From Bacteroidota bacterium (GTDB lineage: Bacteria; Bacteroidota; Bacteroidia; Chitinophagales; Chitinophagaceae): a DNA stretch of 38,597 nt. Position 1 is the stretch's first letter; each line of letters starts with the position of its first letter. The translations under genes and the position numbers were made by a program. Shown in pieces: positions 36,244-38,597 of the stretch. The notes below the pieces were generated by a model. It saw only the letters and a list, made by a program, of their open reading frames with translations. It was not told the DNA's origin and did no database searches. Location of the stretch: the NCBI GenBank assembly GCA_030706685.1, contig JAUZOA010000048.1:1-38597 (forward strand), written 5' to 3'.

Positions 36244-37482
36244 ATGCTGCTTCGCCATTTAGCATTTTTAAAGTCTGTTTTTTTATACAGCATCTCTGCA
36301 ATGGGTGGTCCCCAGGCTCATCTTGCAATGATGCTGAAGACCTTTGTACGCGAAAGATCATATGTGACCGAGCAGGAATTAATGGAATATAGTGCCTTTT
36401 GTCAACTACTGCCGGGAGCTTCCTCCACTCAAACTCTTACATTGATCGGTTATAAAAGAGGCGGGGTTCCACTCGCAGTACTCACATTAATTATTTGGAT
36501 AATACCTGGCTGTACTTTGATGGGGGCTCTTTCTTTCCTGCTTCATAATATTGATCAAACGGCGCTTGGTACCGATATCTTTAAATTTATCGCGCCAATG
36601 GCGGCAGGCTTCCTTTTATATGCTTGTTTTACTGCTTTCCCGGTCGCTATTAAAAATACGATTACATGGGTAATTGTAGTGCTGAGCTCGGCTATGACTT
36701 ATTTCTTCTTCAAACTGCCTGCTATTTTCCCCGTGTTAATAGTTGCAGGGGGCATTGCCACTAATCTTAGCCTGAAACGTATTCCCCAGGTTGAACAGAA
36801 ACCCCGCAAAATAAGATGGTGGAATTTTTGGTTATTCGGAATCATTTTTATTGCCGCGGGTGTTATCAGTGAAACCGCGAAAAATGATAACTGGCCGAAT
36901 CGTAAGCCCATCAATCTTTTTGAAAATACTTACCGGATGGGAAGTCTTGTTTTTGGCGGAGGCCATGTCCTGATGCCAATGATGTATGAACAATTTAGTG
37001 TGAGACCCGAGGCCGTCAAAAAAAGGGATCCCAATGTTGTTCAAATTGATGAAAATGATATGTACACGGGAATGGGTATTGTGCGTGCTATCCCGGGCCC
37101 CGTTTTTTCCATTGCATCGTTTACAGGAGGAATGGCATTAGAAGATATGGGCACAGAGATGCAGGTAGTGGGATGTATTATCGGAACTGTTGCAATTTTT
37201 TTACCAAGCGCCCTGCTGGTTCTTTTTTTCTTTCCTATTTGGAACAATTTAAAGAAATATGCGGCTGTATACCGTTCCCTGGAGGGCATTAATGCTGTTG
37301 TAGTGGGTATAATGATTGGCTCCACTTTTTATATCATGAAAGATATTTCTATTATTGAAGCCAAAACTATCAGTCTTTTAAATGTAAGTGTAATCATCGG
37401 AACCTGTTTGATGTTGCTTTATACACGTATCCCTCCGCCGATTATTGTCGCACTTTGTTTGTTGCTGGGTTATCTTATTTGA
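36244..37482 (+). CDS. chrA: Long-chain chromate ion transporter
   Basis: 412 residues with about ten to eleven membrane helices arranged as two homologous halves. Half 1 has [20 protein letters not shown] and the CHR motif [20 protein letters not shown]. Half 2 has [15 protein letters not shown] and [18 protein letters not shown]. The two-domain form is the common chromate/sulfate transporter that exports chromate from the cytoplasm. No chrB regulator is seen. The ATG at 36244 is a good start ([20 protein letters not shown]). It is the last confident gene before the repeat region. Confidence 0.92.
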
Positions 37483-37786
37483 TTTTACTGCACCCTGAGC
37501 CGTTTGAAATGCTTGCATAGTTGAACACACCTGATGTTGTTTCACAATTATGCTCTCCTGTAAAAGTTTGCACGGAAAATATTTATCCGGGAGGATCAAC
37601 TTCATGATAGCGGGTCATCCGATACCGCTCTTAAAAATAATTTTGATCTCTCTATTATTTTTACATTTTGCTGCAACTCCTGGGTTTTGTATTTTGTCAT
37701 TACTAAGAATCGGTTTTTGCCCGCGCAATTCAATGACTCTTTTTATTTTAGATATTAACCCAATCATAGCAGGTTTTAACCCGGTT

Positions 37787-38050
37787 AGCCGGACAACCCT
37801 GGTTTCCAACCCGGAATTTGCAAGGCGGGAGAACGCCTTTACCTTGCCGGATGAACGCCTTTATCCTACCAGTTGAACGCTTTTACCTTGTAAGAGGGAT
37901 GATACCTGAACGCTTTTATCCCCTTAGCATATTGACCCTTTAATGCTATCATACTGCTACTTCACCGCTATCTCGCCGCTATCCCATAGCTTCAGGCAAG
38001 CATCCGTATAGCTATCCAGTTACTCTCAGCACGCAGGAGAGTCGGACTAT
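37787..38050. repeat. Degenerate 11-bp periodic tandem array, 24 units
   Basis: Cutting the sequence into 11-mers from 37787 places a G at the fifth position in 21 of 24 consecutive units, without any change of phase. Two subregions are well conserved. From 37831, GAACGCCTTTA, GAACGCCTTTA, GAACGCTTTTA and GAACGCTTTTA occur at 37831, 37853, 37875 and 37908 (spacings 22, 22, 33). From 37941, units read TAATGCTATCA, TACTGCTACTT, CACCGCTATCT, CGCCGCTATCC, CATAGCTTCAG, GCAAGCATCCG, TATAGCTATCC. The individual units differ, so this is a periodic rather than an exact repeat. The period is close to one turn of B-DNA. No coding frame fits it. Confidence 0.8.
37831..37921. repeat. 22-bp sub-repeat inside the array (GAACGCYTTTAYC)
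   Basis: Four copies of GAACGC followed by C or T, TTTA, C or T, C start at 37831, 37853, 37875 and 37908. The first three are exactly 22 bases apart; the fourth is shifted by one 11-base unit (33). The second half of each 22-mer (for example CCTTGCCGGAT, TCCTACCAGTT) is less conserved. It looks like a duplicated pair of array units. Confidence 0.8.
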
Positions 38051-38171
38051 GCCGTGCCGGACAAACCTTAATCCTGAATCTGTAAAAGGGTATCACGCAA
38101 AGAGAGTCTTATACTTTGCACCCTTTGCTCCTTAGCCTTTGCATGAAATAAAAAATTATAAGAAATATAAA

Positions 38172-38231
38172 TGCCGGTAAGGCGGGAAGTGATAGTCTTT
38201 AATTTGTCTTTTTCTTACCGTCTTTCCGGCA
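38172..38231. other. Long imperfect inverted repeat / stem-loop
   Basis: GCCGGTAAGGCGGGAAG (38173-38189) pairs with CTTACCGTCTTTCCGGC (38214-38230) at 14 of 17 positions, with one more T-A pair outside, around a 24-base loop. There is no T tail, so it is not an obvious terminator. It could be a structured RNA leader element or a remnant of a mobile element end. Confidence 0.5.
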
Positions 38232-38399
38232 AATACTTGCCTTTTAGTCAGCCACTCATAGGTTTTTGATTGTACGTCTTTTACTTTAAAGAGAGCGGGA
38301 GACCGGATTTATTTTTCCACTCATACAGTTTTTTCGCCCCCAACCGCATTTCTATATATAGGGGCTTTTCCTTTTTTTATTCATTTTAAAACTTTTTAT

Positions 38400-38597
38400 A
38401 TGGCAAAGCAAGCAGGTCCAATTTTTCTTTCGGGTACAATCGGCAATGTTACTTATTACCGGTTGCATGGTAAGCATTATGCCCGGTTAATAAGTTCGTT
38501 GACAGGGAAACGGGTGAAGACCGATCCCTGCTTCAGGAACACGATGCGTAATGCTACGATGTTCGGTAAAGCCTCAAAGATCGCTTCAACCATCTAC
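38400..38597 (+). CDS. Small conserved Bacteroidota hypothetical protein, N-terminal part (runs off right edge)
   Basis: ATG 38400 opens MAKQAGPIFLSGTIGNVTYY, followed by RLHGKHYARLISSLTGKRVK, TDPCFRNTMRNATMFGKASK and IASTIY, where the window ends (66 codons seen, no stop). The pattern MAKQxGPIxLxGTIGxxTFY, then G(K/E)xxAR, then RxxxDPxFxRTxxNxxxFGxA, recurs in Bacteroidota as a small protein of unknown function, which I recall by shape only. No signal peptide or known domain is visible. It is preceded by the long gene-free region with the periodic array. The leader just upstream is very T/A-rich, with no exact -7 element. Confidence 0.7.
   Translation, partial: MAKQAGPIFLSGTIGNVTYYRLHGKHYARLISSLTGKRVKTDPCFRNTMRNATMFGKASKIASTIY

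Follow-up and report, generated by a model that had tools for sequence, protein, structure and literature searches.

The window, by which we mean the whole 38,597-bp stretch of DNA analysed here, is the entire contig C170 of a 5.74-Mb draft genome. Near one end it carries a degenerate array of 11-bp units, which is preceded by a chromate transporter family gene and followed, ~350 bp downstream, by the start of a gene (P0001) of a family that is named MAK here after the N-terminus of its members (Table 1). The earlier note had placed the array in a gene-free region, which is correct locally, but a gene begins at 38400. The short dispersed repeat downstream of the array has 45 more matches across the genome and is tandem, with units ~103-108 bp apart, beside two of the array copies described below. 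The imperfect inverted repeat is broken in the window copy, and no inverted repeat of ≥14 nt was found in window positions 37480-38400.

Table 1. Coordinates of the features in the window and of the stretch shared by two genera.
Feature	Location	Strand	Basis or remarks
Chromate transporter family gene (Pfam PF02417), upstream neighbour, outside the unit	36244..37482	+	
Degenerate 11-bp-phased array, 24 units	37787..38050	.	Unit count, shuffles, four-copy alignment, conservation
GAACGCYTTTA sub-array	37831..37918	+	Units at 37831, 37853, 37875, 37908
nnnnGC(TATC)n sub-array, seven consecutive units	37941..38017	+	
Short dispersed repeat, CTTTGC...TTTGCATG type, one copy	38095..38150	+	
Imperfect inverted repeat CGGAAAGACGGGAAG / CTTGTCGTCTTTCCG, seen in copy C187	38173..38235 (approximate in window)	+	
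MAK-family gene P0001, first 66 codons, cut by contig end	38400..38597	+	Pfam, NCBIfam, PHROG: no match
1,948-bp HTH-array-MAK stretch	L269:15361-17308 and L270	reverse strand (L270)	G286, G122

The 11-bp rhythm of the window array is real. When the 264 bp were cut every 11 bp from 37787, G stood at unit position 5 in 21 of the 24 units, the number that the earlier note had reported; this was the top count for 24 units over all starts, bases, and periods of 5-30 in the 38.6-kb window (the runner-up had 19), and shuffles never reached it. Within the 264 bp, identity was 0.34, 0.44, 0.39, 0.38, and 0.38 at lags of 11, 22, 33, 44, and 55, compared with 0.19-0.24 at the off-period lags of 10, 12, 21, and 23. 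The best lag value was equalled by 0 of 2000 dinucleotide shuffles and the phase statistic by 0 of 500. The 22/22/33 spacing first noticed for the GAACGCYTTTA units is borne out by their starts. The seven consecutive units described as nnnnGCTATCn all have GC at positions 5-6, but the exact GCTATC is present in only four of the seven. Repeat finders returned 11- and 22-bp units without spacers, and the constant repeat with unique spacers of a CRISPR array is not present, in agreement with the initial view that the array is not of that kind. Nor is it coding, as had also been stated, since the 22-bp difference between its genomic copies shifts the reading frame. The array folds no better than its shuffles (z -0.02 and 0.31 on the two strands), and no Rfam family exceeded its gathering score in the window region; the best match there, snoR135 with 31.9 bits against a gathering score of 45, covers the dispersed repeat together with its hairpin and was taken as chance.

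A 451-bp query around the array, searched against its own genome, returned the window and three further copies (C13, C187, and C146) with 83-92% identity, and these four dispersed copies are flanked by different genes. C187 and C146 are shorter by exactly 22 bp, which means that they differ from the window by two whole units with the phase retained, and the difference falls within the GAACGCYTTTA sub-array. The claim that the phase never slips holds for the window, C187, and C146, but C13 carries a single 1-bp deletion near 37826. In the array core (37840-38039), the identity between copies was 88-100% per 40 columns. Upstream (37680-37799), it was 53-89% among C170, C187, and C146, and lower against C13, while downstream (38080-38239) it was mostly 82-97% between the four copies. 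Since the downstream stretch is about equally conserved, the array is not singled out within the window element. The borders of the element vary among the four copies, two of which sit at contig ends. The array sequence of the window was found in none of 6 congeners and in none of 393 other sampled genomes of the taxonomic family (two candidates scored per genome), and it had no match in phage or plasmid records. Absence from close relatives, which the earlier note, together with a lack of length conservation, had regarded as telling against the array, was thus observed for the window sequence, but the class of array, tied to the gene, does occur in relatives.

Further arrays of this period occur in the same genome. 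A scan of 866,665 bases gave 13 regions that scored ≥7.5 at period 11, and nine of these do not resemble the window array; among the other nine periods, period 7 gave five regions, period 14 two, periods 8 and 10 one each, and the rest none. Multiples of three (the coding rhythm) and period 22 (eight regions) also turned up. Four relatives (1,036,427 bases) yielded one period-11 region, L097 in G004, which looks like a low-complexity stretch because eight of the ten periods each gave one match there. By tblastn, a recognisable MAK gene lies within 1.5 kb of 3 of 14 sampled own-genome arrays, and none was found within this distance of the other 11 of 14; L010 is cut by the contig end at the ATGGC of the gene, and L037 and L045 have only a decayed MAK start by inspection. 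Several arrays form multi-copy families with and without the gene, namely L037/L045/L052/L137, L049/L063, and L056/L136.

The L049 and L063 arrays share 117 bp (L049:13875-13990 and L063:4224-4340) with 90% identity in opposite orientation, and both are array-only copies without a recognisable MAK gene. At L020:1200-1330 (C76, approximate), the 11-bp array and the MAK gene have between them another series of short repeats, 9-10 bp long and, by inspection, of the CCGCCAAAT / ACGGCCAAAT type. Strong 7-bp tandem arrays of the ACTGGAT type occur at L065:12440 and 15358 (C201), period 7 being the second commonest of the ten periods counted in the own-genome sample.

The arrays were first linked to the MAK family by three of them lying upstream of genes with a common N-terminal pattern (19-35% identity). 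These three genes were not connected by the first tblastn search, but were connected by alignment and a profile. None of the MAK members scanned matched a Pfam, NCBIfam, or PHROG family above the cut-off or contained a recognised domain, and comparison of the MAK profile with solved structures gave nothing useful (best, NusA, 0.018). The N-terminus looks rich in Lys and Arg by inspection. A profile built from three members detected MAK in 102 of the 294 genomes sampled from the taxonomic family, and in 49 of the 101 genera. The 70 MAK proteins were split by an EFGG-type motif into class B (29) and class A (41). The class B profile matched 30 of 395 genomes of a phylum-wide sample, other families of the class included. 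Neither a class B protein nor the array DNA matched any of 50,697 phage records, and no match was confirmed in IMG/VR; a 25-kb Marivirga plasmid record carries a class A relative at 45.5%. The HTH-array-MAK stretch listed in Table 1 is 99.7% identical in two genera with different surroundings. Since a contig end cuts it in G286, transfer, misassembly, and contamination are all possible.

Helix-phased degenerate arrays are associated with the MAK family across many genera and into other families of the class. In the own genome, the genes found with P0001 and then with the profile (L132, L136, and L137) all have upstream 11-bp arrays, with scores of 9.3, 11.7, and 18.0; the L137 gene is truncated. 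L134 and L135 have no array, and both are contig-end fragments missing the 5' side. An upstream 11-bp array, called when none of 200 shuffles equalled it, was present in 34 of 69 MAK homologues found by protein, the 69 regions being not independent in that genomes and genera recur, L138 was seen before the test, and the matches L140, L182, L200, and L206 start inside the gene. No significant long array was detected in the remaining 35 of 69. At nine other periods, the same upstream regions gave 0-4 of 69. Downstream of these 69 homologues, period 11 gave one array, compared with 8 at period 7 and 6 at period 14; upstream of 300 other ORFs, period 11 gave 7, and periods 8 and 13 gave 7 and 5. 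The homologue arrays, which come from many genera, differ in sequence from the window array and have the same period. In the phylum-wide sample, 7 of 29 loci (one of the 29, L226, misplaced owing to a short contig) have a period-11 array at the same threshold, six of these outside the family, compared with at most 3 of 29 at any other period. In L227, L233, and L235, whose three genomes belong to a single other genus, AT-rich sequence with an 11-bp period extends to 4-12 bp before the MAK start, nearer the start codon than the arrays of the home family.

The two classes differ in how often they carry arrays: among loci with usable upstream sequence, 24 of 28 in class B have one, versus 10 of 41 in class A (P=5e-7). 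By inspection, a class B array has direct units on one side and inverted copies of the local unit on the other, with an AT-rich CTTTWAAAG-like centre between them. The inverted unit matches the local direct unit at ≥9 of 11 positions in 19 of 24 loci, while 25% of 530 mismatched pairs reach this level. When three alignments of five loci each were compared in 40-column windows, pairwise identity was 0.64-0.84 over the arrays versus 0.25-0.52 upstream; gene-ward of the arrays it was 0.30-0.75, and conservation there extended to a promoter-like stretch and to the region of the start codon. The arrays of L147 and L148 differ by one 11-bp unit. In five genomes of one genus with two paralogue groups, the units are about GATATCCCGGA in one group and CGTAYATGTYC in the other, and, by inspection in those five genomes, unit sequence tracks the paralogue group, not the genome. 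Promoter-like AT-rich motifs were seen by inspection downstream of class B arrays, which suggests that the array is probably outside the MAK transcript. Several homologous loci share sequence far past the unit.

The block conserved upstream of class A genes encodes, in divergent orientation, a protein of ~62 residues whose C-terminus is HTH-like. Of the 70 family loci, judged from the flanks examined, 22 have such a gene upstream in divergent orientation, 6 have it downstream in opposite orientation, and 1 has it upstream, reading in the direction of MAK. The divergent upstream arrangement was also seen in 12 of the 15 loci that come from other families, and most of these 15 were chosen because the HTH-like gene had already been seen there. 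HTH and MAK co-occur: the HTH was found in 66 of 102 genomes with MAK versus 7 of 192 without (P=4e-31), and at least 43 of 63 best HTH matches lie within 2 kb of a listed MAK gene. Beside the HTH start, an 11-bp-phased operator with units ATACWCTATCC/ATRCYTTTGCC was recognised in 23 of 33 distinct divergent loci, other families included. Pairs of YAT[AG]C in the 33 loci numbered 26 at 11 bp, 13 at 22 bp, and 6 at 33 bp, whereas shuffles averaged 0.15 at 11 bp and never exceeded 3 at any distance; the motif was picked after viewing the sequences, and the margin over the shuffles is large. The other 10 of 33 loci do not fit this operator, and two of them (L213 and L217) carry long arrays of other units.

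The HTH profile matched nothing in the genome of the window, where 21 of 42 first-look candidates were scored, and no HTH-like gene was seen in the examined flanks of class B loci, though these have the strongest arrays. When the class A operator PWM was applied to the window array, its score was reached by 0-2 of 200 shuffles for 10-unit runs, 2-5 for 6-unit runs, and 13-32 for 3-unit runs. The window array fits the class A operator only weakly and is not convincingly recognised by the PWM; any 11-bp array would gain from the phasing. Matches of HTH members to the PHROG Cox-like excisionase family were weak (best E 5.5e-4, 2 of 8 members) and competed with other weak ones to DUF7026 (0.019), HTH_36 (0.16), and TIGR01764 (0.1); four of the eight members matched a PHROG of unknown function. 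Since the excisionase-type profile matches are weak or below curated cut-offs, we do not claim membership of the HTH in that family. Comparison of the HTH profile with solved structures gave nothing useful (best 0.072, chain 'H12').

We propose that the array is a helically phased multi-site operator for an Xis/Cox/Apl-like cooperative regulator, placed before the MAK gene, and we give this proposal about an even chance of being right. It draws on the array and its phase, on the statistical association with the MAK family, on the small divergent HTH-like gene and its phased operator at many homologous loci, and on the arrays being better preserved than the stretch upstream of them. A small HTH-like protein would bind one subunit per turn, head to tail, on a single face of the DNA. 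A protein touching one DNA face at each unit, as the earlier note had suggested, is still the best model; it is plausible and has been strengthened. Contacts between neighbours would outweigh sequence in binding, so that the 11-bp spacing is kept while the letters drift; changes in array length would come in whole units, and a filled array would switch the promoter or promoters beside it. An Apl-like binding mode predicts strict spacing, degenerate letters, whole-unit length changes, and a site between divergent genes. Judged from the sequences, binding of the array by the HTH-like protein and control of MAK by this binding are candidate roles. For the window copy, the operator role is one that we infer, since no HTH was detected in its own genome; it may be bound by MAK itself or by a regulator that has diverged or, as a relic, by nothing. 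The absence of a significant long array from about half of the MAK upstream regions, the low share of class A loci with one, and the small number of own-genome arrays near a recognisable MAK gene argue against the operator reading. So do the lack of HTH matches in the window's genome and in class B flanks, the weak excisionase-type and PWM matches, the ten divergent loci that do not fit the operator, and the equal conservation downstream of the array in the window element.

Among the other explanations, the one that survives best, unlikely as we consider it, is that the array is a cis part (an end, an origin, or an attachment region) of a small non-autonomous mobile or REP/MITE-like element, in which MAK and the excisionase-like HTH would be passengers or mobilisers and orphan arrays would be dispersed progeny. 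The occurrence of the window element in four different gene contexts and the dyad design of class B, with its direct units, centre, and inverted units, are consistent with such an element. It keeps some probability because array families recur in the own genome with and without the gene and because of the 99.7% identical stretch in two genera, although that stretch ends at a contig end. Terminal repeats were not identified, homologous loci that share sequence well past the unit fit inheritance in place, and the searches of phage records and IMG/VR described above count against it.

Next in rank, and also improbable in our judgement, the array would be an operator for the MAK protein itself or for another regulator rather than for the small HTH. 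Response regulators of the OmpR/PhoB type, for example, also bind 11-bp direct repeats. The arrays without a detected or nearby HTH gene in class B loci and in the window's genome, the unit sequence following the paralogue group, and the Lys/Arg-rich appearance of the MAK N-terminus would fit this explanation. MAK has no known domain, however, and the differing units in one genome argue against one shared host regulator.

That the array is a neutral minisatellite, in which an 11-bp tandem duplication expanded once, diverged, and was carried to four places, appears very unlikely. A copy difference of 22 bp, or two units, is usual for tandem repeats, the window sequence was not found in sampled relatives, and conservation within the element is as high downstream as in the array. 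Nevertheless, the phase has been kept though the units share only 34-44% identity at lags 11-55, with one 1-bp indel among the four copies, and at homologous loci the arrays show higher conservation than their upstream sequence. The gene association also disfavours the minisatellite, since across genera the arrays keep their place beside a single gene family and do so at one period alone. An RNA element (a leader, attenuator, or terminator) is very unlikely too. The A-form RNA helix makes one turn in 11 nt, and base pairing is possible between class B units and their inverted copies, which agree with the direct units within a locus more than between loci. The window array, however, gave neither a fold better than shuffles nor an Rfam match above the gathering score, and the class B array is probably not in the MAK transcript.

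The arrangement of 11-bp arrays before the MAK family is widespread in Bacteroidota and apparently undescribed; it was not found in a literature search, whose coverage leaves out most subscription journals. Returning to the operator reading, we tentatively extend it to a chromosomal 'operator-code' family, a combination that is unlikely to be correct in all its parts. Each MAK copy would have its own 11-bp unit, of which the letters drift while the period is fixed and the sequence follows the paralogue. The units would stand head to tail and, in class B, inverted around a dyad. The copies would multiply, lose the gene, and leave relics, and the array-only relics may act as decoys or mobile control elements. 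If so, a non-phage regulatory or selfish system would exist throughout the class Bacteroidia. If the operator reading itself is right, excisionase-style cooperative binding, in which spacing prevails over sequence, would serve chromosomal gene control. This would account for arrays that look degenerate yet hold phase, and would offer a natural series of operators with differing units, useful for asking how cooperativity replaces sequence specificity. The MAK family gains its first functional handle, namely a proposed phased operator and a neighbouring candidate regulator.

Several known systems resemble this arrangement in part. In the parC centromere of plasmid R1, which holds the ParR sites, a promoter is flanked on either side by five 11-bp direct repeats; this centromere serves plasmid partition with ParM/ParR. 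The BrickBuilt MITE of Porphyromonas gingivalis, with 19 copies in one strain and promoter elements, resembles the window array in that both are intergenic tandem repeats within elements dispersed in the genome of a member of the Bacteroidota (PMC4596501). It differs in its 23-nt unit and inverted-repeat ends, and its abstract mentions no link to a MAK-type gene (PMC4596501). RdfS of ICEMlSymR7A is an oligomeric winged HTH protein that binds its own promoter and the intS promoter region with about one subunit per 10 bp and no clear consensus motif (PMC11963761). Unlike the system proposed here, RdfS acts at attP of an ICE, and the available passages describe no regular 11-bp array (PMC11963761). 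Apl of phage 186, both an excisionase and a repressor, binds to direct repeats with a spacing of 10-11 bp; five of them lie at att and seven between the opposed early promoters, and the protein combines weak single-site specificity with strong cooperativity between neighbours (PMC7498355). The MAK arrays differ from those of Apl in being chromosomal, in occurring in many families of the class, and in lying beside an uncharacterised gene family; no integrase was noticed at MAK loci in the ORF lists of L269-L272. They also run to as many as 24 units and, in class B, have inverted units and a dyad centre as well, and binding here is predicted. What the MAK arrays share with the Apl/Xis/Cox systems are tandem direct repeats one helical turn apart. 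The small HTH-like protein encoded near some of them is a putative DNA-binding counterpart, with weak matches to Cox-like excisionase profiles.
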